Source: a virus
IMG/VR virus record: IMGVR_UViG_3300046002_005110
Span: 16,943 to 80,942 of that record
Reading direction: 5' to 3' (one strand)
DNA length: 64,000 nt
Below the pieces are notes generated by a model. That model searched no databases and was not told where the DNA came from. It worked only from the letters and a program-made list of their open reading frames with translations. This document shows, one piece after another, positions 43,532 to 59,197 of this stretch. How positions within the stretch are numbered: the first letter of the stretch is position 1; each line of letters starts with the position of its first letter. The position numbers were made by a program, and so were the translations under genes.

Positions 43532-43839
43532 TGAATACAGAACTTATCAAACAGACTAGTAAAACTAAGTACTTACACAGTCTAGCCAAAATATCAAATA
43601 AAGAAAATCATGAGTCACAACTATTAGTGACTATTTCTGGTGGGACATTTCGCTCAAGTCCAGAATTAATATCTTTTTTATCAATAACACAAATGGGAGA
43701 CAATGTCATATTATTGGACATATATGAAAATCCAGTAAGTGTTAATCGTTTAATATTATTAGACATGTGTATTGAATCCTACAAAACCACTATGTCAAGT
43801 TGGCTCGAATGTTCAGAAAAAATCAATGGACAACGATAA
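43531..43839 (+). CDS. Small island protein of unknown function
   Basis: 102 residues, MNTELIKQTSKTKYLHSLAK, with no recognised domain. A segment LLVTISGGTFRSSPELISFL is the most structured part. Its stop overlaps the next ATG (TAATG). The start codon abuts the hairpin at 43509-43531 and there is no clear Shine-Dalgarno sequence. As the first gene of a chain of coupled glycosyltransferase-like and radical SAM genes, it could be a regulator, carrier or substrate; nothing in the sequence decides this. Confidence 0.6.
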   Translation: MNTELIKQTSKTKYLHSLAKISNKENHESQLLVTISGGTFRSSPELISFLSITQMGDNVILLDIYENPVSVNRLILLDMCIESYKTTMSSWLECSEKINGQR

Positions 43840-44645
43840 TGACCAGAGGAATATTATTATTTGCAATTGATACTGAAACAAAATCATATACCACAATGGC
43901 AAAATATTGTGCACAAAAAATAAAAGAACATTTAAATTTGCCAGTTGCATTAGTAACCGATAAAGATATCAAAGACTCAATCTTTGATCATGTGATTAAT
44001 ATCAAGTCAGAAACTCCTCAATCTCGTGTTCAACAATCTACGGGTATAAAAGAACAATGGAATAATTTTGAAAGATATCAGGCATATAACTTAAGTCCGT
44101 TTGATCAAACCATTTTAATTGATACTGATTACATATGTCATAGTAACAAACTACTAAAATTGTTTGATATTAATCAATCATTTTTGTGTCATAAACGAAG
44201 AATATATCTAGGTAGTCAAATCTATTCTGAGATAGAATATTTTGGAAAAGAATTAGAAATGTTCTGGGCAACGGTTATATATTTTGATAAAAGTAATGAG
44301 TCAAAATGTGTATTTGATATGATGAAAATGATTCAGAAAAATTATGATCATTACAGTAAGTTATATCGTTTTAGATCAAATCCATTTCGTAATGATTTCG
44401 CATTAAGTATTGCGTTAAATACTGTATATGGGCATGCTATTCCAATCACTGTAGAAATTCCGTGGAGTTTAATAAATGTAGAATTCAATACACAAGTATT
44501 ACTGAAAAGTTCACATAGTTGGGAATTAAAATTTAATAAACGAGTAAACAATAAAGTTGCTGACTACAGAATCACTACATATAATCAAGACTTGCATATT
44601 TTAAATAAAGATTCTTTGTTTTCTGTTATTGAGAATGATAAATGA
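43839..44645 (+). CDS. Glycosyltransferase-like protein (GT-A fold, DxD)
   Basis: 268 residues from ATG 43839; upstream in-frame starts lie inside the previous gene. The N terminus GILLFAIDTETKSYTTMAKY is the nucleotide-sugar-binding strand-turn of GT8-like enzymes. IKEQWNNFERYQAYNLSPFD, TILIDTDYIC supplies the metal-binding DTD at ~100, and a FRNDFALSIALN segment (~190) fits the acceptor side. It likely transfers a sugar from a nucleotide donor; the acceptor is unknown. It overlaps the next gene by ATGA, and that gene is a member of the same broad family. Confidence 0.62.
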   Translation: MTRGILLFAIDTETKSYTTMAKYCAQKIKEHLNLPVALVTDKDIKDSIFDHVINIKSETPQSRVQQSTGIKEQWNNFERYQAYNLSPFDQTILIDTDYICHSNKLLKLFDINQSFLCHKRRIYLGSQIYSEIEYFGKELEMFWATVIYFDKSNESKCVFDMMKMIQKNYDHYSKLYRFRSNPFRNDFALSIALNTVYGHAIPITVEIPWSLINVEFNTQVLLKSSHSWELKFNKRVNNKVADYRITTYNQDLHILNKDSLFSVIENDK

Positions 44646-45409
44646 CACAGGGATATATCATTCAAGCAATTAATACCGACACTGTAGACTATCAAACATG
44701 TGCTCAAGTATTGGTTAAATCATTAAGGGCGGTGGGTGATATAAGACCTGTTACGATATTGACTGATATATCTAATGATAAAGTTAGTAGTGCAACATAT
44801 GGACCATATGCAGATGATTGGCAAGTATATGAACAATCTCCATATGATGAAACGTTCAAATTAGAAGCAGATATGATAGTTACCAGATCATTGGATAGTT
44901 GGTGGAATTCAATGAAAAATCGTGATTTGCATATTGCAACTGGATGTAGAGATTACAAACAACATGTATCTAAATCTAGGTATTATCGTCAAGTATTTGA
45001 TAAAAATAATTTACCAGATGTATATAATGGAATAACTTATTTTAAAAAATCATTATTGTCAAAACAATTCTTTGACATTGTAAAACTAATATTTGAAAAT
45101 TGGCAAGAAATAAATAATAATTTATCATATTCAAGTGAGTTGACCTATGGAGATACTGATACAGTATATGCAATAGCGGCTAATATTATTGGTATAGAAC
45201 AATGTACAATACCTAACAGTTCAATTCAATTTGTTCATATGAAACAGAGAATACACAATGGGTTAATGGATGATTGGACTAAAGAAATGATTTGGGAATT
45301 AATTGACTCGGACTTTAGAATAAACACTATTAGTCAATTATACCCAGTACATTATCATATTAAATCATTAGCATCAGATTTGGAATTGGCATATGACATC
45401 AAAATATAA
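44642..45409 (+). CDS. Glycosyltransferase-like protein, related to the preceding gene
   Basis: 255 residues. QGYIIQAINTDTVDYQTCAQ parallels the N terminus of the previous protein, followed by DIRPVTILTD. EQSPYDETFKLEADMIVTRS sits where the first protein has SPFDQTILIDTDY, so the DxD position reads EAD here. A YGDTDTVYAIAANII segment lies near residue 180. The altered metal-binding triplet may mean changed specificity or an inactive partner. It ends with 17 bases of overlap into the next small gene. Confidence 0.6.
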   Translation: MTQGYIIQAINTDTVDYQTCAQVLVKSLRAVGDIRPVTILTDISNDKVSSATYGPYADDWQVYEQSPYDETFKLEADMIVTRSLDSWWNSMKNRDLHIATGCRDYKQHVSKSRYYRQVFDKNNLPDVYNGITYFKKSLLSKQFFDIVKLIFENWQEINNNLSYSSELTYGDTDTVYAIAANIIGIEQCTIPNSSIQFVHMKQRIHNGLMDDWTKEMIWELIDSDFRINTISQLYPVHYHIKSLASDLELAYDIKI

Positions 45410-45689
45410 ATTATATTATAATAAACAAGATGGAACACCAAAATACTACAGTATGGAAGATTTGGATGAAGATTACATTGATGTAGATCAAAAAACTTTC
45501 GAGGCTAGTAGATATGACATCAAAGTAGTAGATGGTAAAATAAAGTCTTTATATGAGAATAGTATTTCCAAATATCAATTGATAACTGAGTCAACTGATA
45601 CCTGTATAATGTGTGATTATGATGATATATCCATAATAGTGAATAATAGTTTATCATACAAATTATGGGACTACAAATTCACTAACTAA
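45393..45689 (+). CDS. Small acidic island protein of unknown function
   Basis: 98 residues, MTSKYKLYYNKQDGTPKYYS, acidic and Tyr-rich, with two Cys in DTCIMCDYDD near residue 74. It overlaps the preceding gene by 17 bases, which supports coupled expression. The CIMC pair could bind a metal, but no family is recognised. Confidence 0.55.
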   Translation: MTSKYKLYYNKQDGTPKYYSMEDLDEDYIDVDQKTFEASRYDIKVVDGKIKSLYENSISKYQLITESTDTCIMCDYDDISIIVNNSLSYKLWDYKFTN

Positions 45690-45692
45690 ATA

Positions 45693-45710
45693 TTCAGTAT
45701 GAATACTGAA
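45693..45710 (+). promoter_or_regulatory. Hairpin enclosing the start codon of the next gene
   Basis: TTCAGTAT (45693-45700) and ATACTGAA (45703-45710) form a perfect 8-bp inverted repeat with a 2-base spacer, placing the ATG at 45699-45701 in its tip. CTAAATA at 45686-45692 could be a late box directly upstream. Confidence 0.4.
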
Positions 45711-46643
45711 AAAATTATAGAATATGTAGATGTTGCTGACTTAGATTGTATATATCTAAGTTATGATGAGCCGCAGAAAGAGCAATTTTGGGTAAAAATA
45801 AAGAACATGATACCATGGGCAAAACGAGTAGATGGCGTTTATGGTAGTGATGCTGCACATAAGGCTGCAGCCGAATTATCAGATACCGAGAGATTCATTC
45901 TAATAGATGGCGATAATATGCCAGATTCTAAATTTTTTGATTTAACATTAGAGATTACAGAACAAAACAAAAACGCTCAATTTCGTTGGAGAGCCAAGAA
46001 TCATGTAAATGGATTGTACTACGGTAATGGTGGTATGAGTAGTTGGACAAGAACATTTGTTAATAGCATGAAAACTCACGAGAATACTGATGGTACAGAT
46101 CAGACTAATATTGAGTTTTGTTTTGATCCACTTTATTGGCCAATGCATGATTGCTACAGTACTACTTATATCAATCATACTGCAAAACAGGCATGGAGAG
46201 CGGGATTCAGAGAAGGTGTTAAGATGTGTACTAGACAGGGAGTAATACCATCTAGTAAACAAGAATTTTTAAAATGGGTATGGCCTAGTAACTTACGAAA
46301 TTTAAGCATATGGCATACCATTGGACGTGATGTAGATAATGGTTTTTGGGCAATACATGGGGCCAGATGTGGCACACATTATCTTATGTTACAAGATTCA
46401 TGGGATCATACTGACGTAAGAGATTTTAATAAGTTAGATGAGCTATGGGAAATACATAAAAATGATGGACCAGCGGAGTGTGTTGAAATTGGTAAGCAAT
46501 TAAACACACATTTGGGAACTAACATTGTAGAGTTTGATGAACAACAAAGTTTATTTTTCAAAGAATATATCAGTAAAAATTGGCACAATATTGGTCCAAT
46601 GATTACTGAAATGTCAGTAATTAGATCACAAGAAGGATGGTAA
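45699..46643 (+). CDS. Glycosyltransferase-like protein with DGD motif
   Basis: 314 residues. DLDCIYLSYDEPQKEQFWVK, KRVDGVYGSDAAHKAAAELS and ERFILIDGDNMPDSKFFDLT form a GT-A-like N-terminal half with a DGD metal site near residue 91. AWRAGFREGVKM lies at ~168. The same order (GR..SQHAAA, then WYFLVNGKLKVNPKFDF, then TWRTAFRECIKL) occurs at the C terminus of the 957-residue protein at 59198-62047, so the two share a domain. The acceptor is unknown. The stop overlaps the next start (TAATG). Confidence 0.58.
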   Translation: MNTEKIIEYVDVADLDCIYLSYDEPQKEQFWVKIKNMIPWAKRVDGVYGSDAAHKAAAELSDTERFILIDGDNMPDSKFFDLTLEITEQNKNAQFRWRAKNHVNGLYYGNGGMSSWTRTFVNSMKTHENTDGTDQTNIEFCFDPLYWPMHDCYSTTYINHTAKQAWRAGFREGVKMCTRQGVIPSSKQEFLKWVWPSNLRNLSIWHTIGRDVDNGFWAIHGARCGTHYLMLQDSWDHTDVRDFNKLDELWEIHKNDGPAECVEIGKQLNTHLGTNIVEFDEQQSLFFKEYISKNWHNIGPMITEMSVIRSQEGW

Positions 46644-48061
46644 TGACTGATAAACAACCTATTAAATATGATAGAACCATTATAGAAATTAAAAATAAAA
46701 GAGATATTATCAATCAAGTAAGTCCTACTTTTTGTTCGGCAAAATGGGTTCAAAGTACGATATTATTATATAATGGAGAAACACACAGTTGTCATCATCC
46801 AAGTCGTCATAAAATACAACTCAGTGACATTAAAGATAATCCAACTGGTATTCATAATACTCAAGTTAAACTTAAAGCTAGACAAGAAATGTTAGATGGT
46901 ATACAGACCAAAGAATGTGATTACTGTTGGAACATTGAAAATTTAGATAATAATTATATTAGTGATAGAATTTATAAATCAAGTTATTCTTGGGCCTGGC
47001 CTCATTTAGAAGAAATAAAGAAAAGCGGAATTGGAAAAAATATTGATCCTACATATATGGAAGTTGCATTTGAAAACACCTGTAATTTTAAATGCTTATA
47101 TTGTAGTCCAGAAAGTAGTTCTAGATGGCAAGAAGAAGTTAGTCATCATGGTCCAATTTCAGTAACTGGATATAAACTTCATGACGTTGTTTGGCTTAAA
47201 CAAAAAGGAAAATTGCCAATACATAGAGACAGTCCAAATCCATATATTGATGCATTTTGGGAATGGTGGCCAACTCTTTATCCTAAACTTCATACATTTA
47301 GAATTACTGGTGGTGAACCATTACTTAGCAAACATACATGGGCTGTATTGGAATACATAAAAGAAAATCCAAGATCGGATCTGACACTGGCAATCAATAC
47401 TAATATGAATGTTCCTGTTAATTTAATCAAAAAATTAATAGAATATATACAGATAATTGCCCCTCAAATTAAAGATTTTGATGTATATACTAGTATTGAA
47501 AGTACTGACAGTCAGGCAGAATATGCTCGTAGTGGAATGGTATACAATCAATTCAAAGACAATTGTGAATATTTTTTAAAAAACACACCAAATAATTCTA
47601 GACTTCATATTATGACTACGGTTAATCTTATGAGTGCTCCAACATTTATTAATTTTTTAGAATTAATTCAAACATGGAGAGAAAAATATTTTCTTAATCG
47701 GCATGATTTTAGAGTCAGAACTATGATCAGTTATTTACGTTGGCCTCAGTTTTTAAGTTTAAATTTATTATCTTTAAAAGATAAACAAAATTTTGCTAAA
47801 GAATGGATAAGTTTTGTTGAAGATTTTGTAATTACAGAAGAATATGAAAGTTTTCATACGTTTTATGTTGAAGAGTTAGATCAGATAAAAAGATTATGTG
47901 ACTATATGATTACTTCTAAACCAGAAAGTCAGACTCATTATGATGATTTTCGTAGTTTTATCAATACGTGTGATCAGCGCAGAAATACAAGTTTTATTAA
48001 AACTTTCCCTACATTGGAATATATGATGAACTCAAATTATTATGGGCAAACTAGTGAATAA
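46643..48061 (+). CDS. Radical SAM protein 1 (N-terminal Cys motif; paralog of the next gene)
   Basis: 472 residues from ATG 46643, which overlaps the previous stop; the ATG six bases upstream is also possible. The N-terminal segment has SPTFCSAKW, HSCHHPSRHKI and CDYCWNIE, a set of cysteines that could bind an auxiliary cluster. The radical SAM core follows: CNFKCLYC (Cys147, 151, 154) for the [4Fe-4S] cluster that cleaves S-adenosylmethionine, and RITGGEPLLSKHTW for the GGEP SAM-binding motif. SxxSTDSQAEYARSG and TTVNL segments complete the partial barrel. Substrate unknown. It overlaps the next gene by 20 bases. Confidence 0.88.
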   Translation: MTDKQPIKYDRTIIEIKNKRDIINQVSPTFCSAKWVQSTILLYNGETHSCHHPSRHKIQLSDIKDNPTGIHNTQVKLKARQEMLDGIQTKECDYCWNIENLDNNYISDRIYKSSYSWAWPHLEEIKKSGIGKNIDPTYMEVAFENTCNFKCLYCSPESSSRWQEEVSHHGPISVTGYKLHDVVWLKQKGKLPIHRDSPNPYIDAFWEWWPTLYPKLHTFRITGGEPLLSKHTWAVLEYIKENPRSDLTLAINTNMNVPVNLIKKLIEYIQIIAPQIKDFDVYTSIESTDSQAEYARSGMVYNQFKDNCEYFLKNTPNNSRLHIMTTVNLMSAPTFINFLELIQTWREKYFLNRHDFRVRTMISYLRWPQFLSLNLLSLKDKQNFAKEWISFVEDFVITEEYESFHTFYVEELDQIKRLCDYMITSKPESQTHYDDFRSFINTCDQRRNTSFIKTFPTLEYMMNSNYYGQTSE

Positions 48062-49454
48062 ATCTAAAATTATTAATATTATTCCAAGAAAAAATATTCA
48101 GGCTAGTAGTGATATAAAAAGCTATGATCAGGCAAATGAAATTAGTCCGACTTTTTGTGCTGCAAAATGGTACATGACTACTATACATTTGGCTCATGGT
48201 GAAACTCATAGTTGTTATCATCCATGGACTCACAAAATTCCACTTGAAGAATTAAAAAAAGATTCTGGTGCTATTCATAATACTGAATATAAAAAGAGTC
48301 AACGAAAATTGATGTTAAATGGAGAAAGACCTAAAGAATGTCAATACTGCTGGAACATGGAAGATTTGGGTCACATCAGTGACAGAATTATCAGAAACGA
48401 TGAGAAATGGACCAAGTATGATTTAGCAGATTTTAAAAATATGACAGGTGATGAAAATGTTTATCCTAGACACGTTGAACTTAGTTTTTCTACTACCTGC
48501 AATTTAAAATGTAGTTACTGTAATCCAGGAGTTAGTTCTAAGTGGTTAGAAGAAATTCAGAAGTATGGAGGATATAATACTAGTACAAAATTTAATAATT
48601 TTGGTCTAAAAGGACAAGCATTACCATATATCAAAGAGTCAGATGACAATCCGTATATTGACGCTTTTTGGGATTACTTACCTAAAATGTATCCTCATGT
48701 TAAAGTTCTCAGAGTGACTGGCGGCGAGCCGCTAATGAGTAAGCATACTTTTAAATTACTTGACTATGTTAAAACTCATGAAAATAAAAATTTAGAAATG
48801 GTTGTCAACAGTAATTTATGTGTACCTGATTCACTCATTGATAAGATTTTAGAAGCGGCAATTGAGATAGAAAATGCTAATGTTATTCAAAATTTTAAAT
48901 TATTTCTTAGTATTGATGCTACTGGTAAACAAGCAGAATATGGAAGAGATGGACTTGATTGGGAACAATTTAAAAGAAATGTTTACAAGTACTTAAACAC
49001 TGTTGACAACTGTAGAATAGGTTTCACAGTAACTTTCAATATATTTTCAGTGCCTGATTTTCCTAATTTAATTAAATTTTTTCATGAGTTACGAAAAGAA
49101 TTTCATCCTCAGGGCAAAATAGTTACATATGATAATCCATATCTGAGATATCCTCCACATCAATGTATTAACATACTTCCTAATGAGTTTGTAAAATATT
49201 TGAAAGAAACTGAATTATATATGGAACAACATAAAAATGTACCTTTCGGATTCACACAACTTGAAATAGATAAAGTTAAAAGATTGCAAGCATTTATGTT
49301 ACATAAAGATGCATTGATAGATGATCAATTGAATATATATAGAAAAGATTTTGTTATTTTCGTAGACGAACATGATCGTCGTCGAGATACTAATTTTTTA
49401 AAAACATTTCCAGAGTATGAAGAATTTTATAAACTATGTCAAGGACTAACATGA
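48042..49454 (+). CDS. Radical SAM protein 2
   Basis: 470 residues, clearly paralogous to radical SAM protein 1: SPTFCAAKWYMTTIHLAHGE, HSCYHPWTHKIPLEEL and CQYCWNMEDLG at the N terminus, CNLKCSYC at Cys153/157/160, RVTGGEPLMSKHTF, LSIDATGKQAEYGRDGLDW and a common ending of the type RRDTNFLKTFPEYEEF. The tandem pair therefore arose by duplication and may act in sequence or as a complex. The first ~20 residues before SPTFC lie in the overlap with the preceding gene, so the real start might be slightly downstream. Its TGA overlaps the next ATG. Confidence 0.88.
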   Translation: MGKLVNKSKIINIIPRKNIQASSDIKSYDQANEISPTFCAAKWYMTTIHLAHGETHSCYHPWTHKIPLEELKKDSGAIHNTEYKKSQRKLMLNGERPKECQYCWNMEDLGHISDRIIRNDEKWTKYDLADFKNMTGDENVYPRHVELSFSTTCNLKCSYCNPGVSSKWLEEIQKYGGYNTSTKFNNFGLKGQALPYIKESDDNPYIDAFWDYLPKMYPHVKVLRVTGGEPLMSKHTFKLLDYVKTHENKNLEMVVNSNLCVPDSLIDKILEAAIEIENANVIQNFKLFLSIDATGKQAEYGRDGLDWEQFKRNVYKYLNTVDNCRIGFTVTFNIFSVPDFPNLIKFFHELRKEFHPQGKIVTYDNPYLRYPPHQCINILPNEFVKYLKETELYMEQHKNVPFGFTQLEIDKVKRLQAFMLHKDALIDDQLNIYRKDFVIFVDEHDRRRDTNFLKTFPEYEEFYKLCQGLT

Positions 49455-50533
49455 AAGTTAAGTTAACATTAAGAAATCCATTAAATGAGTCAGAAACTCA
49501 TGATGTATATATTATACCAAAAGATGCCCCAATTGGTAAAAAATGGATCGAAAAACTAACACACTGTCTGACAGAGAATCTTAAACTAGAGAAAAATTAT
49601 TGTTGGGTAGGTTGGCCAGATGGATCTCGTGATTTAAAATATTTGACGAACAATCTTATGAAATTTATTAATGTGATTAATAATTATAATGACAGTCCAA
49701 AATGTCTATGGACAGAAAAATATATTATAACAGAAGTATTCAATGAGTCAAATGTTATGACATCGGATTTTCAAGTGAATCATGATTTGTTTAATAAATT
49801 ACATCATCATTTTGAAATACTTCAGGGTCAAGTTTGGAATATCAGTGATTGGTTTATAAATGCCGATAATGAAACTAGATATGCTATCAGACAATTAAAC
49901 AATCATTGTCATGAAATGGAAATTTTAATCAAGCAGATTCGAGCAAAGAATGTATACCCAGATGGAATTAATCCATCAGCTATTATAGCATTTATAAATG
50001 GCCCAAGAGAATTGTTAGAGCCTGAAGATCATGATCATTTTACTCTTCAACGTGGCGCTGGTAGAGTGTTTCTAGGTTATTGTCAAATTGGAAAGATTCA
50101 TTGGGAAGCATATGTAGATGGAGATCAAGATATTCACGATTCTGGTATCAGTGGTTTACGATATGTTAGTGGGGAAATAACTATAGATTTTGGTGCCGGA
50201 ACTGATAATAGACTTCATCATCAAAATAATATTGACAAATATGCTAAATGGCTAGAATTGAATGGACTTTCAATCGACGATAAATATTTGGCTCATGGGT
50301 GGTTACATGTAGCAACGGTTGATTTAACTCCATATACGAACATGTCTCCTCTGGAAATTGAACAATATCTTAGTAAATATTTGGATATTTTTAAAATATC
50401 AGTGATTGATGATAATGATGTTACTATAATTGAATCAATATATGATTATCATTGGAACAAAGTTGATTTTGAATCTTCACAGAAATCAGAATTATTCGAA
50501 ACTTTTAAATCATTTTGTAAAAACACGGATTAA
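49451..50533 (+). CDS. Unknown protein coupled to the radical SAM genes
   Basis: 360 residues from ATG 49451 (ATGA overlap with the previous stop). No known domain is recognised. Notable segments are VNHDLFNKLHHHFEILQGQV and NISDWFINADNETRYAIRQL (~110-150), ELLEPEDHDHFTLQRGAGRV (~185), DSGISGLRYVSGEITIDFGA (~240) and LAHGWLHVATVDLTPY (~285). It is rich in His, Trp and Asp, suggesting metal or ligand binding. It is the only large gene inside the radical SAM run that is not itself radical SAM, so it is the prime candidate for a partner, tailoring enzyme or carrier. No function is assigned. Confidence 0.7.
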   Translation: MKVKLTLRNPLNESETHDVYIIPKDAPIGKKWIEKLTHCLTENLKLEKNYCWVGWPDGSRDLKYLTNNLMKFINVINNYNDSPKCLWTEKYIITEVFNESNVMTSDFQVNHDLFNKLHHHFEILQGQVWNISDWFINADNETRYAIRQLNNHCHEMEILIKQIRAKNVYPDGINPSAIIAFINGPRELLEPEDHDHFTLQRGAGRVFLGYCQIGKIHWEAYVDGDQDIHDSGISGLRYVSGEITIDFGAGTDNRLHHQNNIDKYAKWLELNGLSIDDKYLAHGWLHVATVDLTPYTNMSPLEIEQYLSKYLDIFKISVIDDNDVTIIESIYDYHWNKVDFESSQKSELFETFKSFCKNTD

Positions 50534-50538
50534 TATAA

Positions 50539-51510
50539 ATGAAAGTAATCAAGATAGAAAGACAATTGGATTCAGTAAACAGAAAAACATTTTTTATATG
50601 TTGGACTCTGCATGATTTTTGTAATTATAGATGTAGTTATTGTCCACCAGGACTCAATGGTGGTAATAGACGACATATTACATTTGAACATGTAAAAAAG
50701 TTATATACTAATTTAAAAAGTAAATTGAGTTCAGATACTAAAATAATTATTGCCTTTAGTGGTGGTGAACCAACATTACATCCAGAATTCATAGAGATAG
50801 TTAAATATCTCAGAGAGAATGGATGTGAAGTAACTATGACTAGTAATAGTGGTCGTGGTTTAGAATGGTGGAAAGAAATAGAACCATATCTTACTCATAT
50901 GGTATTCAGTTATCATCCAGAATTTACTAAATTTGACAAGTTCTATGAAAAAGTTGAGTATCTAAGCCAACACTGTTGGATCAATGTTGATATCATGATG
51001 GATCCAGATCATTGGGACGAACTAATAGGATATGCAAATGAATTTAAAAAACTCAAGAGAAATGTAGGTGTAATTCATCTTCCAATTCAACAAAATTTTG
51101 GAACTACTAATGAAGGTCTACTATATTCTTATACTGAAGAGCAAAGACAATTTTTAGCAAATCCTCCTAATTTTTATGGATCTCATGATATACCAAAACA
51201 TAAACTAGCTCAAAGTGGTGGAAAAATTGGGCGTGGGCCAGCTACTGTAACATATGATGATCAAACAACTGAAAGACTTGATTATAAGACTCTTATCGCT
51301 AAAGATTTAAATAAATTTAATGGTCTGACATGTAATATTGGCTTGGAAGGATTAATATTAGAATTTGAAGATGTTTATAGAGGTTACTGTCATGTGGGTG
51401 GTAAAATAGCAAATCTATTAGATGATGATTTTGATCTTCCTATTGATCCAGTGATTTGCAATAAGGAAAGATGTGCTTGTTCAGTTGATATAGAAGTGAG
51501 TAAGTATTAA
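50539..51510 (+). CDS. Radical SAM protein 3 (core at the N-terminus, C-terminal Cys cluster)
   Basis: 323 residues and different in layout from the others. The cluster motif is right at the N terminus, CNYRCSYC (Cys28, 32, 35), with AFSGGEPTLHPEF at ~74 and VTMTSNSGRGLEWW at ~95. The auxiliary cysteines are C-terminal: LTCNIG, YRGYCHVGG and ICNKERCACS, as in SPASM/twitch enzymes. It thus has the usual orientation of peptide-modifying radical SAM enzymes, in contrast to its neighbours. It begins 5 bases after the unknown protein and its stop overlaps the next ATG (TAATG). Confidence 0.88.
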   Translation: MKVIKIERQLDSVNRKTFFICWTLHDFCNYRCSYCPPGLNGGNRRHITFEHVKKLYTNLKSKLSSDTKIIIAFSGGEPTLHPEFIEIVKYLRENGCEVTMTSNSGRGLEWWKEIEPYLTHMVFSYHPEFTKFDKFYEKVEYLSQHCWINVDIMMDPDHWDELIGYANEFKKLKRNVGVIHLPIQQNFGTTNEGLLYSYTEEQRQFLANPPNFYGSHDIPKHKLAQSGGKIGRGPATVTYDDQTTERLDYKTLIAKDLNKFNGLTCNIGLEGLILEFEDVYRGYCHVGGKIANLLDDDFDLPIDPVICNKERCACSVDIEVSKY

Positions 51511-52772
51511 TGAATTCTTCATTTTGTCCCAATCCATTTATATATCTGACTAATAGCACCGACAGTAAAATTAAATATTGTTGTCTGATCAATGACGGAA
51601 TAAAAGACAATGATGGAAAATTGTTCAGTAGTGACAGTGCAAATATGACTGAAGTATGGAACTGTAATGAACTTAACAATGTTCGTAAAAAAATGATCAA
51701 TGATGTAAAATTACCACAGTGTCAAGTCTGTTATAAAGCGGAAGACAAGGGTGGTAGTAGTCTGAGATTGGATCTATTGTCATATTGGTATAATGGTCCA
51801 AAAAGACCAGAATTTCAGAAAATGTATGATGAATATCTCAGTGAAACAACCATGACTGGACCAGTCAGTGTTGAAGTTAGAACCGGTAGCATATGTAATC
51901 TAAAATGTCGTATGTGTTACCCATCATGTAGTATACTTATTGAAAAAGAGTATAACAAAATACAAAAAACTGAACCAGGATGGCATAAATTAAGTTTTGG
52001 CTCAGGCAGTAGTACTGTAATACATGACAAGTATTTTTTAGAAACTATTAAAAATTTTGAAAACATTGAAGTATTAAGATTCAGTGGAGGAGAACCATTT
52101 TTAAATGAATCAACTAATCACTTGATATCCGAAGCAGCAAAATCTGGCCATAGTAAACATATTGATCTGTATGTCAATACTAATTTTACTAAAATCACTG
52201 TACAATTGTTAGAAGATTTAAGTACATTTAAAACCGTTAACATTGATATTAGTTTAGATGGATATAAACAAGTTCATGAATATATTAGAAGTGGATTATC
52301 TTGGACTACTATTGAGGAAAATTTAATTAAATTACGTCCATATTTAAATGAAAATTTTTACTTGACCACTAATACTACTGTTCAAAATCTAAATGTGTTA
52401 TATTTAAAAGAAATTCTAGAATGGACTATATCTGAATTAAATATTACTCCAGTACTCTGTATGCTTAGTAATCCAAAATTTTTAGCAGTTAATAATATGC
52501 CAGATGAAATGAAAATTGAGGCTCTCAAACGGTTGAATGAATTGATGAACAGTGATTTGGTTAATAACTTTAAAAATAGTCATTGGCTCAAGGGCCGATT
52601 GACCAATATTATTGAGACTATTAATCTTAGTTCAGATGTTAATACATTTCAAGAATTTTTGTATTTTACCAAAGTTACTGATAAAGAAAGAAATCAAGAT
52701 TTTCGTGTCAATATACCGGAAGTTGCCGAATATTATTTAAATTATTATAATCAAGAAGATATCAATGTCTAA
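51510..52772 (+). CDS. Radical SAM protein 4, twitch-type with N-terminal cysteines
   Basis: 420 residues. The N-terminal module has FCPNPFIYLT (Cys6), IKYCCLIND (Cys24-25) and LPQCQVCYKAEDKGGSSLR (Cys71, Cys74), then the radical SAM motif CNLKCRMC (Cys129, 133, 136) and RFSGGEPFLNES (~195). The block DISLDGYKQVHEYIRSGLSW follows at ~250. The N-terminal pattern looks like the SPASM/twitch signature usually found after the barrel, here placed before it. It overlaps the next gene by 8 bases. The substrate is unknown. Confidence 0.88.
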   Translation: MNSSFCPNPFIYLTNSTDSKIKYCCLINDGIKDNDGKLFSSDSANMTEVWNCNELNNVRKKMINDVKLPQCQVCYKAEDKGGSSLRLDLLSYWYNGPKRPEFQKMYDEYLSETTMTGPVSVEVRTGSICNLKCRMCYPSCSILIEKEYNKIQKTEPGWHKLSFGSGSSTVIHDKYFLETIKNFENIEVLRFSGGEPFLNESTNHLISEAAKSGHSKHIDLYVNTNFTKITVQLLEDLSTFKTVNIDISLDGYKQVHEYIRSGLSWTTIEENLIKLRPYLNENFYLTTNTTVQNLNVLYLKEILEWTISELNITPVLCMLSNPKFLAVNNMPDEMKIEALKRLNELMNSDLVNNFKNSHWLKGRLTNIIETINLSSDVNTFQEFLYFTKVTDKERNQDFRVNIPEVAEYYLNYYNQEDINV

Positions 52773-54048
52773 TAAAATAAAAAATTCTAGTTTCTGTGTT
52801 TTGCCATTCATTCATGTGGCTGCAGATCCTGGTGGGGAAATTAAACCATGCTGTCTGACAAGAAATAGAAATGTGGATGCAACTGGCAAGCCATATAATT
52901 TAGGGTATGATAAAATTGAAACATTTTTCAACAGCGATTATATGAAATCACTGAGAAAAGATATGATGACAGACGTTCGCCCAACTACATGTCAGACATG
53001 TTACGATGAAGAATCTTCTGGCGGTATTAGTCAGCGACAGACATATACTAAAGGATGGTTTGAAAAAGACCCAGAACTAACTCAAAAGATACTAGACAGT
53101 GAATTACAAGATTATCAAATTGAACCAGATATTAAATATTTTGATTTGAGATTTGGCAATATGTGTAATCTAAAATGTAGAAGTTGTGGTCCTGTTAATA
53201 GTGTACAATTGTTAAAAGAGTCAAGAGAAATACAGATTAATAATCCGGAAATAAGAAAATATTTTTTGTTCAATGATAAAAAAGTTGACAATATCAATGA
53301 TTGGTATCAAACATCTGAATTTTGGGAAAATTTTGTATCTCAAGAAGACAACGTAGAACAACTATATTTTACTGGTGGTGAACCAACTATTATTGAACAA
53401 AACTATGCAATATTGAATAGATTGGTTGAAACTGGACGATCACAGTCTGTGTCATTAATTTTTAGTACTAACATGACAAACATTCAACCTAAGTTTTTGG
53501 ATTTAATAAATCAGTTTAAGAGTGTGACATTTTTGGCAAGTTGTGAGGGATATGGTAATGTTCATGAGTATCTTAGATATCCAGCCAAGTGGTCGGTATT
53601 TGAAACCAACATTCGTAAATTGGCAAAAATGGATCCACATAGAATAACTATACATTGCACTCCAGTTGTTCAGTCGGTTAATCTCAGTCAGATCACTGAA
53701 TTCTTTAAATGGATTGATTCAATAAATGAAGAATATGGATTTAATAGAGTAAACATTTTACCTATAGTATTAACATTTCCCACTCACTTGACGTTTGAAA
53801 TTCTCCCATATGATATGAAACAACGAGCATTGATTAAACTTAACGAGTTTTTGAAAACATCTAGATCATCATTAAATCCTCATTTTGTGGGTAGAATTAA
53901 TGTAATAGTTGACAAATGTAATAAAGACATGTATAATGAGACAGAACTTATAAAATTTAAAGAGTTTACACTGCTTCTGGATCAGCATAGAGAACAGAGT
54001 TTAAACACTGTTAATCCGGAATTATATCAATTGATTTCAAAACTATGA
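52765..54048 (+). CDS. Radical SAM protein 5, twitch-type
   Basis: 427 residues. FCVLPFIHVAADPGGEIKPC is followed by a second Cys and by TCQTCYDEESSGGISQR, the same N-terminal module as protein 4. CNLKCRSC lies at Cys134/138/141 and YFTGGEPTIIEQN at ~205. ASCEGYGNVHEYLRYPAKWS shows the loop common to this group, although it has ASCEGY where the others have SIDGY or similar. It closes with an EQSLNTVNPELY tail like the others. It overlaps the next gene by four bases. Confidence 0.88.
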   Translation: MSNKIKNSSFCVLPFIHVAADPGGEIKPCCLTRNRNVDATGKPYNLGYDKIETFFNSDYMKSLRKDMMTDVRPTTCQTCYDEESSGGISQRQTYTKGWFEKDPELTQKILDSELQDYQIEPDIKYFDLRFGNMCNLKCRSCGPVNSVQLLKESREIQINNPEIRKYFLFNDKKVDNINDWYQTSEFWENFVSQEDNVEQLYFTGGEPTIIEQNYAILNRLVETGRSQSVSLIFSTNMTNIQPKFLDLINQFKSVTFLASCEGYGNVHEYLRYPAKWSVFETNIRKLAKMDPHRITIHCTPVVQSVNLSQITEFFKWIDSINEEYGFNRVNILPIVLTFPTHLTFEILPYDMKQRALIKLNEFLKTSRSSLNPHFVGRINVIVDKCNKDMYNETELIKFKEFTLLLDQHREQSLNTVNPELYQLISKL

Positions 54049-54959
54049 ACAATTTAAATACATCAATAGAATTGGCATTAGATACAAATTGTCAGGCAAT
54101 GTGTATTCATTGCTCGCCATCATATAGTGATTTCTATAGAAATGAATCTGATTCTTTAACTCAAATTACTGATCATAGAGTAATCAAAGCATTTTATAGA
54201 ACCAGAGCTAAAAATGCATTCACAGAAAAATCTGAAATTAAAAATTCTGTATATTGGGATAATTTTTGGCAAAATTTAACTCAATTGACTGAGATTAGTT
54301 TGAATGGTGGTGAACCATTACAAAGTGAAAACACATTAAAATTAATAAAAGATTTAAGTAATCATGATCATGCCAGTAAGATAACATTAAAAATATTTAC
54401 TAGTGGAATGTCAATTCCTGATTGGTTTTTTGAAATATTAGAAAAATTTAATCAGGTCATTATAACATTCAGCATTGATGCTACTGAAGAACAAGCCGAA
54501 TATCTTAGATGGCCAATTAGATGGGAATCCGTAGTTGATAATGTAAAAAAATCAATGTCATATTCAAATGTTAAAATATATTTCGCTCTATCGGTTCATT
54601 CATTAAGCTTAAGTTGTTTTCCTGATATAATTAAGTGGATATTCAGTTTAAATTTAAACTTGGATTATAATCCTTTAACTTTTAAATATGTTCATAGACC
54701 AACTTGGATGGATGTAAGATTTGTTGAACAACATACTAAAGAATATATAAATCAAATAATTTGGGACTTTATTGGCCAATGCAATCAAGATGACTGTCAC
54801 AAATTATTAATTAATTCTCTCAAAGGATGTTTAGATTTTATGTGGCAACATAAAGATCAAAGACAAAATGTATTACTTCGTAATTTTATTATTAGTATGG
54901 ATAAAAAGCGTAATACTAATTTTGATATAGTTTTTCCCAAACTAAACAAGGTCATATGA
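54045..54959 (+). CDS. Radical SAM protein 6, short form without the N-terminal module
   Basis: 304 residues. It starts almost at the barrel, with CQAMCIHC (Cys16, 20, 23), then SLNGGEPLQSENT (~86) and FSIDATEEQAEYLRWPIRW (~143). The N-terminal auxiliary-cysteine module of its neighbours is missing, and no C-terminal Cys cluster is obvious, so it may use only the SAM-cleaving cluster. The NTNFDIVFPKLNKV ending matches the family tail RNTxFxxxFP. It is coupled to both neighbours by ATGA overlaps. Confidence 0.85.
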   Translation: MNNLNTSIELALDTNCQAMCIHCSPSYSDFYRNESDSLTQITDHRVIKAFYRTRAKNAFTEKSEIKNSVYWDNFWQNLTQLTEISLNGGEPLQSENTLKLIKDLSNHDHASKITLKIFTSGMSIPDWFFEILEKFNQVIITFSIDATEEQAEYLRWPIRWESVVDNVKKSMSYSNVKIYFALSVHSLSLSCFPDIIKWIFSLNLNLDYNPLTFKYVHRPTWMDVRFVEQHTKEYINQIIWDFIGQCNQDDCHKLLINSLKGCLDFMWQHKDQRQNVLLRNFIISMDKKRNTNFDIVFPKLNKVI

Positions 54960-56212
54960 AATTTAATTTAAAAGAATCTAAAACTTTTTGTGTATACCCA
55001 TTTATTCACATGGCAACGTTGACCAATGGCAATGTCACTCCATGTTGTATTGCCGCCGGAACATCTGATAATTTAAATTCAATGACTATAAAGCAGGCAT
55101 GGAACAGCAATGACATGAAAAGTATACGATTGGCAATGATGGCAGATCAGCCAGTTAAAAATTGTAAACAATGCTATTTCGATGAAGAGTATGGTATAGA
55201 AAGTCATAGACTTAAATCAAATAAGTTTTATTCATCTAAATACTCAGAAAAACTTGATTTAGCTTTAGAATCAGTAGATGAATTCGGACATAGTAGTATT
55301 GATCCATTTACACTAGATATTAGAGCCGGAAATACATGTAATCTAAAATGTATAATGTGTCGTCCAAATGAAAGTTCTAAATGGTTGGCTGATAGTAAAC
55401 TATTAAGTGAAATCAGTCAAAATCCATCACTGAAATCCATATGGACTAGTAACTCAATGATTGACATTGGTCAGTTTACGTGGGTTGAAAAACCAGAATT
55501 TTGGAAAGAATTTGAAATATTAGTTCCAGAACTACAAGAAATAATATTTGGCGGGGGCGAACCGTTCTTATCAAAAAGCATTAATAATTTAATACAGTAC
55601 ATGGTAGATACTGGACATAGTGAACATATTAAAATTAGATTTCATACTAATGGAACTCAAATACCCACTTCGTTTTGGTCATTGATTCCAAAATTTAAAG
55701 AAATAGAATTGATGTTCTCTATAGATGGATATGATGATAAAAATTACTATGTCAGATATCCTGCTCAATGGTCTGAGATAGAACATAATGTTAATCTTAG
55801 CATTGCTAGTGGTGCAAAAACAATGATCTTAACCAGTATACATGCTCTTAATGTTTTAGATTTAGTAGAATTATATCGCTGGTGGATGAAATTAGACTAT
55901 AAAAATACTACTAGATATCCTATTGTTTTGGGAAGAGTATACAATCCAACATATTTAAATCCACAGATTCTTCCAAAAAATGTTAAGAATAAAATTGAAC
56001 AGAAAATACAGGAATTTTTACTTGAAGTCAATGACAAATTTCCTGAATATTATTTTACGTCACTGAAAAGCAATCTTAGTTGGATTTTAGAATCTTCTAA
56101 TACTAATATTGAAGCCATTACTGAGTATGTGACACATTTAGATACAATTAGAAAAACTAACTTTTCAGAAACATTTCCAGAACTTAATCAATTACTAATG
56201 AATAATGAATAA
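54956..56212 (+). CDS. Radical SAM protein 7, twitch-type
   Basis: 418 residues. N-terminal module: FCVYPFIHMATLTNGNVTPC with the following Cys, the IKQAWNSNDMKSIRLAMMAD stretch and NCKQCYFDEEYGIESHR. Core: CNLKCIMC (Cys128, 132, 135) and IIFGGGEPFLSKS (~197), where one extra Gly precedes GGEP. FSIDGYDDKNYYVRYPAQWS follows. Tail: RKTNFSETFPELNQ. It overlaps the next gene by eight bases. The full motif set suggests an active enzyme. Confidence 0.88.
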   Translation: MKFNLKESKTFCVYPFIHMATLTNGNVTPCCIAAGTSDNLNSMTIKQAWNSNDMKSIRLAMMADQPVKNCKQCYFDEEYGIESHRLKSNKFYSSKYSEKLDLALESVDEFGHSSIDPFTLDIRAGNTCNLKCIMCRPNESSKWLADSKLLSEISQNPSLKSIWTSNSMIDIGQFTWVEKPEFWKEFEILVPELQEIIFGGGEPFLSKSINNLIQYMVDTGHSEHIKIRFHTNGTQIPTSFWSLIPKFKEIELMFSIDGYDDKNYYVRYPAQWSEIEHNVNLSIASGAKTMILTSIHALNVLDLVELYRWWMKLDYKNTTRYPIVLGRVYNPTYLNPQILPKNVKNKIEQKIQEFLLEVNDKFPEYYFTSLKSNLSWILESSNTNIEAITEYVTHLDTIRKTNFSETFPELNQLLMNNE

Positions 56213-57377
56213 CAAATCATCTGATCTATTTTGTTACGCTCCTTGGACTCATTTATATGTTAATCCAGATAGTAGATTATTGCCATGTTGTTTGTATGAG
56301 GATAAGAATCATGAATTTTCAGTATTAAATAATACTCATTCAATTTTAGAATCAATGAATCATCCAAGAATGATTCAAATTAGATCGGAATTTATACAAC
56401 ATAAAATTCCTGCAGGCTGTTACAAATGTGAGTCTCAGATGAAAATGAATATGACTCCTTATAAACAAAAAATAAATAATATTGCTGAGTCTTCTGATAA
56501 ACCAATTGAAATACTACAAGATGGAACAGTTGAACATTTTGAACCATTGTACTTGGATATAAGATTTGGAAATTTATGTAATTTAAAATGTTTAACATGC
56601 AGTCCTACTTTTAGCAGTAGCATTGCGGTTGAATTCAATAAAATACATAATAGAAAAAATAAAACTCTACATAGATTAGATCATGAGATTATAGACGAAA
56701 TTTTTAATGATCTAGTTCAGGTTAAAGAAATATATTTGGCTGGTGGTGAACCACTGATAACTGAAGAAAACTATAATCTACTGAATATCTTAATAGAACA
56801 TGAATTAGATCCAAGTTTAACCTATAATACTAATTTGACAAACATTCAATATAGAGATAAGCAGTTGACTGATCTATGGAACAAATTTACTAATATTACT
56901 GTAATTGTTAGTTTGGATGGTTATAAACATGTCAATGATTATATCAGATATGGATCTGATTATGATTCAGTTATTAATAATATTTTGACAGTAAAGCAAC
57001 AGACGCCACATGTCAAAATAAAAATAAATAGTGTGGCTAGTGTAATGAGTATGTTGTCTCTTCCTGACTTGGGACAGAATCTATTGTCAACACATATATG
57101 TTCCGCCAAAGATATTATGTATAGTATTGCTCATCAACCAGAAAATATGGATCCCACGGTTTTACCATTGGATAAAAAAAATCAGATTGTAGAACGATGG
57201 GAAAGTTATATACTATGGCTAACTGAAAACAATCATGATTATGATTATATAGATCGTTGTCGTGGGTTGATCAATTATATGATGAGTAAAGATAATTCCA
57301 TAAAATTTGAACAGATAATTTATAAACTTCAAGAAACTGATCGATTCAGAAATTCTGATTATAAAACTATACTATGA
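56205..57377 (+). CDS. Radical SAM protein 8, twitch-type
   Basis: 390 residues. FCYAPWTHLYVNPDSRLLPC and the next Cys, then GCYKCESQMKMNMTPYK form the N-terminal module. CNLKCLTC is at Cys125/129/132, YLAGGEPLITEEN at ~180 and VSLDGYKHVNDYIRYGSDY at ~243. The tail RFRNSDYKTIL is a shortened version of the family ending. The stop at 57375-57377 overlaps an ATG at 57374 that opens the remnant of a further family member. Confidence 0.88.
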   Translation: MNNKSSDLFCYAPWTHLYVNPDSRLLPCCLYEDKNHEFSVLNNTHSILESMNHPRMIQIRSEFIQHKIPAGCYKCESQMKMNMTPYKQKINNIAESSDKPIEILQDGTVEHFEPLYLDIRFGNLCNLKCLTCSPTFSSSIAVEFNKIHNRKNKTLHRLDHEIIDEIFNDLVQVKEIYLAGGEPLITEENYNLLNILIEHELDPSLTYNTNLTNIQYRDKQLTDLWNKFTNITVIVSLDGYKHVNDYIRYGSDYDSVINNILTVKQQTPHVKIKINSVASVMSMLSLPDLGQNLLSTHICSAKDIMYSIAHQPENMDPTVLPLDKKNQIVERWESYILWLTENNHDYDYIDRCRGLINYMMSKDNSIKFEQIIYKLQETDRFRNSDYKTIL

Positions 57378-57479: not shown

Positions 57480-57578
57480 ATGTTTATAGTCAAATTTTTC
57501 AAACGTCTGATCAGAGAATATAGATTTAAAAAACGTCTAAAAGAATTACGTGAAAAAGATCCATTTATATACAAATGA
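57480..57578 (+). CDS. 32-residue basic peptide before the carbamoyltransferase
   Basis: MFIVKFFKRLIREYRFKKRL then KELREKDPFIYK: a short hydrophobic start followed by a strongly basic amphipathic helix. GGAG lies 8 bases before the ATG at 57480; an in-frame ATG at 57384 gives a 64-residue version but overlaps the radical SAM relic and is not preferred. The stop overlaps the start of the next gene. It could be a membrane-associated adaptor for the carbamoyltransferase or a modified peptide; both are guesses. Confidence 0.6.
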   Translation: MFIVKFFKRLIREYRFKKRLKELREKDPFIYK

Positions 57579-58516
57579 TACATTGGGGAGTAAACGCATT
57601 AAACCACGGACATGGTATTGCCGTATTTAAAGATGATAAATTTATTGACAATTATGTTGGTCAACATGATCAAATATCAAGTTTAAACATTGATTTAGCA
57701 CTTGAACACGGAACTCCTGACCGAATTTTTTGGTATGAAAATCCTTGGATAAAAAAGGCTCGGCAAATATATGCTGGTCAATATAATAGGGCATTTGATT
57801 TTAGTGTATTACCAAAAAATTATATGAATCTATATACATCAGCGCCTATTACGTATACTTCACATCATTCTAGTCATGCGGCGGCTGGATATTATACAAG
57901 TCCATTTAGTAACTGTGCAATTGTGGTTCTTGATGCAATAGGAGAATTTGAATGTGCTACAATTTGGCAAGCTAAACACGGTGAATTACATAAAGTATGG
58001 AGTCGCAATTATCCACATAGTTTAGGATTATTTTATAGTGCATTTACTAAGTTAGTGGGACATACACCAATCAAAGACGAATACTTATTACAAAACATGG
58101 CAGAATTGGGAGATTCTACCAGATATTATAATCTCGTATTAACATATATGAATGGTCTGATTCATTCTCAGAAGAATCTTCATCGTGGTATATCTGATTG
58201 GCCTCACGAGATTAAAAATTTGCAAGATAAATGTGACATTGCTGCATCTGTTCAACAAGTATTTGAAATTCAAATTGAATCAGTTATGATAAAAGCCAAA
58301 CAGTTAACTGATGCAGATTCATTAGTTTACATGGGAGGTTGTGCTATGAACAGTAAAACGAATAAAGACATTGTAGAACCAATGTGGAAATATATATGGT
58401 CATTGCCGAATCCGGGTGATGAAAGTAGTGGTATTGGTTCAGTATTATATCATACTAAAAATCGTATACGTAATTATCAATGGAATTCAGTTAAACATAT
58501 TACTATCAAACTTTAA
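57575..58516 (+). CDS. Carbamoyltransferase-like protein (NodU/TobZ Kae1-like domain only)
   Basis: 313 residues. The N terminus MIHWGVNALNHGHGIAVFKD is the Kae1-type phosphate-binding start of NodU/CmcH/TobZ enzymes. TSHHSSHAAAGYYTSPF (~96-111) carries the metal-binding histidines, VVLDAIGEFECATIW is the central strand, and GGCAMNSKTNKDI with NPGDESSGIGSVLY near residue 290 forms the distal nucleotide site. Full-length family members are about 550-600 residues, with a YrdC-like second domain that makes carbamoyl-adenylate. That domain is absent here, so the protein may use a host-supplied intermediate or catalyse another transfer. It converges with the methyltransferase 5 bases away. Confidence 0.8.
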   Translation: MIHWGVNALNHGHGIAVFKDDKFIDNYVGQHDQISSLNIDLALEHGTPDRIFWYENPWIKKARQIYAGQYNRAFDFSVLPKNYMNLYTSAPITYTSHHSSHAAAGYYTSPFSNCAIVVLDAIGEFECATIWQAKHGELHKVWSRNYPHSLGLFYSAFTKLVGHTPIKDEYLLQNMAELGDSTRYYNLVLTYMNGLIHSQKNLHRGISDWPHEIKNLQDKCDIAASVQQVFEIQIESVMIKAKQLTDADSLVYMGGCAMNSKTNKDIVEPMWKYIWSLPNPGDESSGIGSVLYHTKNRIRNYQWNSVKHITIKL

Positions 58517-58521
58517 AACTT

Positions 58522-59151
58522 TTACTTACGCCAGATACTCATGTATCTGGTATATTGATCAGTATGAAATTGTCCTGAAAATAATGGATTATATACATTG
58601 TTCATATTCTCAAAGTCATTTAAACTTTGACTACATCTAATATGTTCTGAACAATCAAAAAAGTTATTGCCTTGAACCACTATTAAACTTCCTGGACAGA
58701 TCATGTTAAACCAGTGATCATAAGTAAATTGATCTACATGTTCACTACTAGTATTGATTACTACATCACTGGTAATACCCCAATCATAATCATATGATTT
58801 CATATCATTGGTAATAGCCTTGAATCTCCACTCATCCATTTCATATGGTTTATTGATCATATCTGCTATTGACTCACACCATGGATCCAGATCAATGCTA
58901 CGAATCTTTTTAACTGGCAAATGTTGAAACATCATACTGGCCAATATTCCAATCCATCCTCCAAATATATATACATTACTTGGTTGATTCATATATTGTT
59001 TTAATGTGTTTACTAACCAGGCTTTACTCTGAAGTTGTCCGGACCAAGTAGCGTCTAGAGCGCGAGTACGTTCGTCGTCTGGTAGATTTCTAATAGCATT
59101 AAACCAATATATCAAATCATTGGTATTGATGGTGAGTGATTGACTTGTCAT
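58522..59151 (-). CDS. SAM-dependent methyltransferase-like protein
   Basis: 209 residues. YIFGGWIGILASMMFQ (~64) is the glycine-rich SAM loop, although with GGW in place of the usual GxGxG. IRSIDLDPWCESIADMIN (~89) provides the acidic ribose-binding residue, and DVVINTSSEHVDQF with SLIVVQGNNFFDCSEHIRCS fill later class I motifs. I recognise this type from aquatic phage genomes without a known target. It is transcribed against the island, converging with the carbamoyltransferase and diverging from the repeat protein. An ATAAATA box lies 5 bases before its start, too close for a normal leader. Confidence 0.7.
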   Translation of the reverse strand: MTSQSLTINTNDLIYWFNAIRNLPDDERTRALDATWSGQLQSKAWLVNTLKQYMNQPSNVYIFGGWIGILASMMFQHLPVKKIRSIDLDPWCESIADMINKPYEMDEWRFKAITNDMKSYDYDWGITSDVVINTSSEHVDQFTYDHWFNMICPGSLIVVQGNNFFDCSEHIRCSQSLNDFENMNNVYNPLFSGQFHTDQYTRYMSIWRK

Positions 59152-59197
59152 ATATATATTTATTTTTGGTTACATGTATTATAAAGTAAATATTAAC

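Follow-up and report, generated by a model that had tools for sequence, protein, structure and literature searches.

What might eight radical SAM genes, packed into one phage operon, be for? The question is raised by a 64,000-nucleotide stretch of DNA (positions 16,943 to 80,942 of the IMG/VR virus record IMGVR_UViG_3300046002_005110), called the window here; genes are named by their first position. The operon of eight was proposed by a sequence-only reading and is confirmed, as CxxxCxxC and GGEP are present in eight ORFs, with the Cys at residues 149/147, 153, 28, 129, 134, 16, 128 and 125 (the two values for the first gene correspond to starts at the upstream ATG, 46637, and at the ATG of 46643, respectively), and a PF04055 search of the whole 80,942-base record, probably an incomplete genome, returned exactly eight matches. 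Seven of these pass the curated cut-off, while 54045 lies slightly under it (27.4 versus 29.5 bits). With one gene that is not radical SAM, 49436, they occupy 46637-57377 with nearly no intergenic space. Membership of the family N_Twi_rSAM (N_Twi) is defined by a whole-protein score above the curated NF033640 cut-off of 170 bits.

46637..48061, + strand: N_Twi_rSAM 1, ETHSCHHP subtype (NF033640 305 bits; N-terminal module Cys 33, 52, 94, 97)
48042..49454, + strand: N_Twi_rSAM 2, ETHSCYHP subtype (332.8 bits; module Cys 39, 58, 100, 103)
49436..50533, + strand: unknown operon protein, not radical SAM, relatives always close to N_Twi
50539..51510, + strand: radical SAM of another type, C-terminal cysteines (PF04055 55 bits; no NF033640 match)
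51510..52772, + strand: N_Twi_rSAM 3 (305.5 bits)
52765..54048, + strand: N_Twi_rSAM 4 (351.9 bits)
54045..54959, + strand: predicted twitch-less radical SAM paralogue (NF033640 168.5 bits, positions 112-397 only; core Cys 16, 20, 23)
54956..56212, + strand: N_Twi_rSAM 5 (345.9 bits; model pLDDT 93.8)
56205..57377, + strand: N_Twi_rSAM 6 (308.3 bits)

Overlaps by TAATG or ATGA, first described for the genes at large, account for one 1-bp and two 4-bp junctions, respectively; the others overlap by 7, 8, 8, 19 and 20 bp, and there is a single 5-bp gap.

An N-terminal cysteine module had been assigned to five or six of the proteins. Exactly six carry it, because 46637, 48042, 51510, 52765, 54956 and 56205 match NF033640 full length (305-352 bits). 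The Cx9-15Gx4C motif is exact in 46637, 48042, 52765 and 54956, with Ser replacing Gly in 51510 and 56205, and the 'CC' ascribed to the module is a single Cys in 46637 and 48042. PF13186 (SPASM) covers the N-terminus of 54956 across all 67 positions (3.5e-9) and also matches that of 56205 (7e-7), both over cut-off. Among 74 relatives, the module cysteines are invariant or almost so, and loss of cluster ligands was accordingly rejected. Together, NF033640, PF13186 and this conservation uphold the suggested likeness to SPASM/twitch: the module is a twitch/SPASM-type site, a predicted auxiliary-cluster domain, and the six enzymes have conserved cysteine sites for one SAM-cleaving and one putative auxiliary cluster. 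The cysteines of 54956 are 12, 30, 31, 70, 73, 128, 132 and 135 and no others. Folds near its model include SkfB, SuiB, anSME and BlsE, and viperin-like folds too.

The two remaining radical SAM proteins are as first described. In 54045, which misses the NF033640 cut-off, the N-terminal part is absent and neither cysteine module is found; judged by this alignment, it is a twitch-less paralogue. The C-terminal cysteines of 50539 are residues 265, 284, 307, 312 and 314. Viperin identity was rejected, the best NF038283 score (51.6 bits, from 50539) standing against a cut-off of 180 bits.

The density of these genes, from which a modification pathway had been suggested, is not exceptional: eight copies are ordinary within this phage group, since 1-21 N_Twi copies occur per viral record, and two records picked solely by their portal gene have 17 copies. 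Nor are the genes scattered independently; they recur together, co-linear and co-inherited, and 78 of 80 N_Twi-N_Twi junctions measure <=30 bp. In L012/L013/L091 the order of six radical-SAM genes, a 49436-type gene and the glycosyltransferase is the same as here, with identities of 33-62%. Positional counterparts of 48042 and 50539 in L012 are 62% and 51% identical, respectively, and 54045 and 56205 have no counterpart there. In the tree, 51510 and 52765 each group with L012/L014 genes (support 0.998 and 1.0). Recent tandem duplication was rejected, as no two window paralogues form a sister pair and their mutual identities are 21-38%, with catalytic residues retained. On these comparisons, the radical-SAM genes are old paralogues whose order is conserved in another phage. 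Beyond the first enzyme, gene content differs strongly between phages. An A-type Fe-S carrier is absent from the present record; it was found in 8 of 27 records searched, not close to the N_Twi genes.

Here and in many other phages, the array sits behind fibre-type genes (40475, 41624 and 42565 in the window) and GT8-like genes. The block immediately upstream comprises:

43800..44645, + strand: putative glycosyltransferase, GT8-like (DTD-type motif in translation; homologues in the same position in L092, L147, L154, L163, L113 and L091)
44642..45409, + strand: putative glycosyltransferase, GT8-like (family of 43800, 20 locus groups)
45393..45689, + strand: small protein of conserved position (homologues in L092, L147, L154, L163 and L113)
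45699..46643, + strand: putative glycosyltransferase before the N_Twi_rSAM genes (motif and context)

A variable island with fibre genes and putative glycosyltransferases, which in the window are assigned by homology and motif, marks the region as a probable host-recognition cluster. Pfam search at 0.01 gave no match for 43800, 44642 or 45699, so the glycosyltransferase role of the 45699 and 43800 types is read from motif and context; tblastn of 45699 and 59174 against the annotated phage collection gave none either. All 13 strong homologues of 45699, from ten large records, have an N_Twi_rSAM gene no more than 10 kb away, where 2.8 such cases were expected (p<=0.0002) and the Fe-S control gave 0/12. 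Sampled N_Twi neighbours include GT7, GT2, UDP-glucose dehydrogenase, dTDP-sugar isomerase, GDSL and carbamoyltransferase, and the PF13704 glycosyltransferase is rare in large records. The non-radical-SAM protein 49436 has 15 relatives in 11 locus groups, every one <=3 genes from N_Twi, and its family conserves H123, H159, K220 and W272. Its model (pLDDT 78.5) retrieved nothing significant from the PDB, the matches being uncharacterised phage proteins only.

Behind the array, four further genes were considered:

57480..57578, + strand: short conserved protein ending KDPFIYK (earlier start possible at 57384)
57575..58516, + strand: NodU-type carbamoyltransferase, N-terminal domain (PF02543 6e-27, phrog_1601 5e-23)
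58522..59151, - strand: methyltransferase-like, weak spermine-synthase fold match (PF01564 0.0013, below cut-off)
59174..62047, + strand: 957-aa protein with a repeated FDFxWxPxPxxPPxIxxFG motif seen in translation

The 58522 family occurs beside N_Twi in 33 locus groups, and the C-terminal region of 59174 is related to 45699, both falling in one blastp family. The KRDPFIYK-ending protein (~33 aa), 100 bp downstream of the final radical-SAM gene, was previously unrecognised; its nearest PHROG matches are not significant, and tblastn against annotated phages found no match. It is single-copy wherever found and usually overlaps the start of the carbamoyltransferase gene, as does the stop codon of the 57480 ORF that of 57575.

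The multi-step modification pathway proposed at first remains the most reasonable reading; of the substrates then named (peptides, glycans or virion proteins), gene context favours glycans. We tentatively suggest, at a probability of roughly 45%, that a surface glycan, belonging to the infected cell or to the tail fibres, is tailored by radical chemistry in several steps, the operon being a glycan-tailoring cassette within the region that a large T4-like phage uses for host recognition. This is argued from the position behind fibre-type and GT8-like genes, the constant proximity of 45699-type homologues, the sugar-related neighbours and the conserved cluster ligands. Further arguments are the isolated Vibrio phage K566, in which four N_Twi-type genes are interspersed with two GT8 genes and a GT4-like one (161548-169287 of OZ196521), the presence of a sugar-nucleoside decarboxylase, BlsE, among the folds near 54956, and N_Twi junctions that leave a peptide precursor no room. 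Moreover, this type of region has been published as a glycosyltransferase-bearing host-recognition cluster (PMC7029224). Against it stand the peptide and protein substrates of SkfB, SuiB and anSME, the derivation of the 45699/43800-type role from motif and context, and the weak linkage of epimerase and carbamoyltransferase to N_Twi (p 0.04-0.2).

Under glycan tailoring, glycosyltransferases would attach sugars to a carrier, which could be the lipopolysaccharide or capsule of the host or else fibre proteins of the phage itself, and the radical-SAM enzymes would then alter unreactive carbons stepwise, possibly by oxidation, dehydration, epimerisation, decarboxylation or bond formation. The auxiliary twitch cluster might assist substrate holding or electron uptake, and the carbamoyltransferase and methyltransferase-like enzymes might attach finishing groups. 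The product would be a phage-specific surface structure altering receptor recognition, e.g. for competitor exclusion or virion masking, with the first enzyme and glycosyltransferase retained across phages and the remainder exchanged.

The main rival, which we consider unlikely without being far-fetched, is modification of virion proteins (the three fibre-type proteins or 59174) or of a small peptide. It likens the array to the SPASM/twitch maturases of ribosomal peptides, and SkfB, SuiB and anSME are indeed among the closest solved folds; fibre-type genes directly precede the array, and the conserved KRDPFIYK protein adjoins it, lying <=25 kb from N_Twi in 11 of 13 records. However, the window yielded neither a PqqD/RRE-type partner nor a protease nor a hypervariable precursor, the arrays have no precursor-sized gap, and the KRDPFIYK protein goes more with the carbamoyltransferase (70/110) than with N_Twi (2/110), occurring in 11 of 50 records in which no N_Twi was found. 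A RiPP precursor inside the array was rejected, as no such gene fits there and the KDPFIYK ORF, linked mainly to the carbamoyltransferase, lies behind the array.

Clearly less probable is the absence of any linear pathway, the genes being interchangeable, partly redundant cassettes that act singly and are assembled by recombination. The range of copy number, the variable content after the first enzyme and the two genes without counterparts in L012 would fit this, whereas the order shared by L012/L013/L091 and the catalytic residues held by such divergent paralogues argue against it. It would be surprising if the KRDPFIYK protein, made on the ribosome, served as a scaffold or carrier in the manner of the mycofactocin or PQQ precursor peptides, the glycosyltransferase, the radical-SAM enzymes and the carbamoyltransferase then assembling on or from it a modified product that might also be glycosylated; if so, this would be a phage-encoded multi-enzyme peptide/glycan pathway of aquatic jumbo phages. 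Least probable is viperin-, QueE- or MoaA-like nucleotide, cofactor or antiviral-nucleotide metabolism for replication or counter-defence. The viperin-like folds and a weak viperin/QueE profile similarity (7e-14 for 50539) speak for it; against it, the profile scores are far under family cut-offs such as that for prokaryotic viperin, and the genes lie in a tail-fibre/glycosyltransferase region, not a nucleotide-metabolism module.

Many aquatic phages devote several kb, up to ~20 kb, to oxygen-sensitive radical-enzyme arrays of one uncharacterised family. Their products, once known, would account for part of the so far unexplained jumbo-phage gene content and of cell-surface phage competition, and the arrays would contribute a large, untested set of radical enzymes. 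Given the conserved order, the glycosyltransferase partner and the small cluster in an isolated phage, K566, the question is open to direct testing.

In SPASM/twitch peptide maturases the auxiliary domain follows the barrel. SkfB, SuiB and anSME, the best fold matches to 54956, likewise combine a radical-SAM core with an auxiliary-cluster domain, at 12-17% identity and TM-scores of 0.3-0.4; here, unlike in them, that domain precedes the barrel. BlsE (cytosylglucuronate decarboxylase), the second-best match (E 2.9e-7; 16% identity over ~250 aligned columns), offers a sugar radical-SAM precedent from antibiotic biosynthesis, where it works on a nucleoside sugar. The family is not new, as the first reading had supposed of the system: NF033640 is already named ('twitch domain-containing radical SAM protein'), and two papers report radical-SAM genes in phages. 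No reaction has been assigned to NF033640, which is defined by sequence and says nothing on arrays, glycosyltransferase partner or gene order; a literature search found no paper on it. The marine T4-like environmental genome TARA_ERS488813_N000010 has, like this aquatic phage, many radical-SAM genes, 12 in number, and the emphasis of that paper is on Fe-S assembly genes (PMC5332604); in the record studied here, the A-type carrier is missing. Pelagimyophages, of ~150 kb where the present phage looks like a jumbo phage, have a similar hypervariable fibre region, one that bears glycosyltransferases and has gained radical-SAM cassettes; the cassettes are mentioned without being analysed (PMC7029224). 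What the present locus adds is an array of apparently old paralogues, conserved in order in another phage and placed behind a tail-fibre/glycosyltransferase block, and a putative glycosyltransferase family, that of 45699, which adjoins N_Twi genes far above chance.

The eight radical-SAM genes claimed by the sequence-only reading were borne out in the array, and no ninth was found across the whole 80,942-base record, of which the window covers bases 16943–80942. Six of the eight match the NCBIfam twitch domain-containing profile N_Twi_rSAM (NF033640) over its full length, at 305–352 bits against a cut-off of 170. The remaining two (genes are named by start position) are 54045, an N_Twi_rSAM relative without the twitch that scores just under the NF033640 cut-off, and 50539, which is of another radical-SAM type with C-terminal cysteines. 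Array member 49436 is not radical SAM and matched nothing in NCBIfam, Pfam or PHROGs. Its structural relatives are uncharacterised phage proteins only, including a 768-aa protein and one from Agrobacterium phage Atu_ph07. This gene and three others discussed here are as follows:

27213–39626, + strand: probably a giant fibre or adhesin, 4137 aa, with weak matches only (FG-GAP, chitin-type carbohydrate-binding module, lactonase repeats)
49436–50533, + strand: array member, fold unknown, in which His123, His159, Lys220 and Trp272 are conserved
57480–57578 (possible start 57384), + strand: unannotated short protein of 32 aa ending in KDPFIYK, behind the last radical-SAM gene
59174–62047, + strand: 957-aa protein with an FDFxWxPxPxxPPxIxxFG-like motif about eight times and a C-terminal region related to 45699, the putative glycosyltransferase directly upstream of the array

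The cysteine module placed before the barrel, which had been likened to SPASM/twitch, is likewise real and conserved. Across 74 members of the family, the module's Cys 30, 70 and 73 are invariant, as are core Cys 128, 132 and 135 and G200, G201 and E202; conservation is at least 90% at Cys 12, Gly 25 and Cys 31. Four of the six N_Twi proteins match the spacing of the twitch signature (Cx9-15Gx4C, then CxxC) exactly, and the other two have Ser for Gly. The N-terminus of one of them, 54956, matches Pfam SPASM over the whole length of that domain (3.5e-9), and its only cysteines are 12, 30, 31, 70, 73, 128, 132 and 135. The N-terminal module of the six proteins is a predicted auxiliary-cluster site.

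The array is a co-inherited gene set. In the 357-kb record that contains L012, and in L013/L091, the order is 45699-type glycosyltransferase, 46637-type, 48042-type, 49436-type, 50539-type, 51510-type, an extra gene, 52765-type and 54956-type. From its 46637-type gene onwards, the 9.6-kb contig L014 is arranged in the same way, except that it has no 49436-type gene. The extra gene (L014 5039–6028; L012 7725–8705), inserted in this syntenic operon, has about 24% identity to part of the 50539-type enzyme and may be a stand-alone auxiliary-cluster domain. In a FastTree phylogeny of 189 non-redundant proteins, 48042, 51510, 52765 and 54956 each group with their positional counterpart (support 0.998–1.0); as the alignment was untrimmed, only close groupings with strong support were used. 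The nearest relative of 46637 is a gene in L153/L166 (65% identity) and not its positional counterpart, so its position was exchanged or is older. No counterpart of 54045 or 56205 was found in L012.

We assign the phage to the T4-like myoviruses because it carries portal, endolysin, baseplate hub and wedge, gp25, SbcC/D-type nuclease and late sigma factor genes. The closest portals (47–54% identity) belong to jumbo phages of 285–490 kb, such as PA5oct and Atu_ph07, and the record is therefore probably a jumbo-phage fragment. The radical-SAM family is widespread, with more than 500 contigs matched in each of two IMG/VR searches. Viral records picked because they contain it have 1–21 N_Twi matches, with up to 18 in 57 kb. 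In a second sample of relatives, chosen by the portal gene alone, family matches over the cut-off (1–17) were present in 9 of the 22 fragments that reach 30 kb and in 6 of the 7 that reach 100 kb. Three bacterial MAG genomes (Bdellovibrionales, Oligoflexia and Bacteriovoracaceae) had 11–26 matches. Translations at the MAG loci L168–L177 read as apparent glycosyltransferases, capsule-type ABC transporter genes and a carbamoyltransferase beside N_Twi genes, and at L175 as a nearby PqqD-like small protein.

In several phages, fibre-type genes are followed by two GT8-like genes, a gene of about 100 aa, a 45699-type glycosyltransferase, one 48042-type N_Twi gene and then a variable set of N_Twi genes, SGNH-like proteins, epimerases, dehydrogenases and carbamoyltransferases, several of these labels being read from translations. 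The window's glycosyltransferases were assigned from motifs and from their homology to neighbours, and no Pfam match supports them. Strong 45699 homologues lay within 10 kb of an N_Twi gene in 13 of 13 cases in ten large records (2.8 expected, p<=0.0002), compared with 0 of 12 for an Fe-S biogenesis control gene; proximity was weak for epimerase and carbamoyltransferase. Neighbour frequencies are conditional, because N_Twi itself served to find most of the relatives; the viral contigs compared are fragments. Of 136 neighbours taken at random, Pfam labelled 27 as radical SAM, 4 as GT7, 4 as GT2, 3 as B12-binding and one or two each as sugar-nucleotide enzymes, GDSL hydrolase, carbamoyltransferase and tryptophan halogenase. 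The halogenase (PF04820, 1.7e-92) adjoins N_Twi genes in other phages, as do 2OG-oxygenase-like proteins (read from translations); together with the B12-binding neighbours, these suggest further tailoring chemistry in N_Twi islands. In Vibrio phage K566, which has been isolated, four N_Twi-type genes (two of them exceed the cut-off) are interspersed with two GT8 genes recognised by Pfam and one GT4-like gene.

The short protein behind the array is a candidate carrier, and no other short, conserved candidate was found. It had no significant PHROGs match and belongs to no known family, and its stop overlaps the start of a NodU-type carbamoyltransferase gene. A degenerate DNA pattern encoding KRDPFIY-x-stop, run against IMG/VR, retrieved at least 120 stretches. 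Among the matches listed were 110 distinct peptides, mostly of 30–49 aa, the relatives ending in KRDPFIYK; a NodU-type carbamoyltransferase lay directly downstream for 70 and the overlap with the next start was exactly 4 bp for 74, while N_Twi_rSAM occurred in 39 of 50 pattern-bearing records. A looser pattern matched 13 of 33 records, each in single copy, and a reversed control pattern none of the same 33. Eleven of these 13 matches had an N_Twi gene no more than 25 kb away (4.5 expected, p=0.0002). The protein's primary tie is to the carbamoyltransferase, and its tie to the radical-SAM array is secondary. At a few loci (L204, L250) this C-terminal motif ends a longer protein.

The enzymes, the conserved ligands, the gene order and the 45699-family association are directly supported. 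We infer the substrate, reactions and purpose of the array, and the best reading, a tentative one to which we give a probability of about 0.45, is surface-glycan tailoring by sequential radical steps within a host-recognition region. Protein or peptide modification is less probable but has to be taken seriously as a rival, since peptides are the substrates of many characterised SPASM/twitch relatives. This rival also draws on the fold matches of the AlphaFold2 model of 54956 (pLDDT 93.8, pTM 0.91), for which the closest solved folds are SkfB, BlsE, viperin-like enzymes, SuiB and anSME, at low TM-scores of about 0.3–0.5. Two precedents have been published: the pelagimyophage host-recognition cluster contains radical-SAM cassettes (PMC7029224), and 12 radical-SAM genes are reported from a T4-like genome (PMC5332604).
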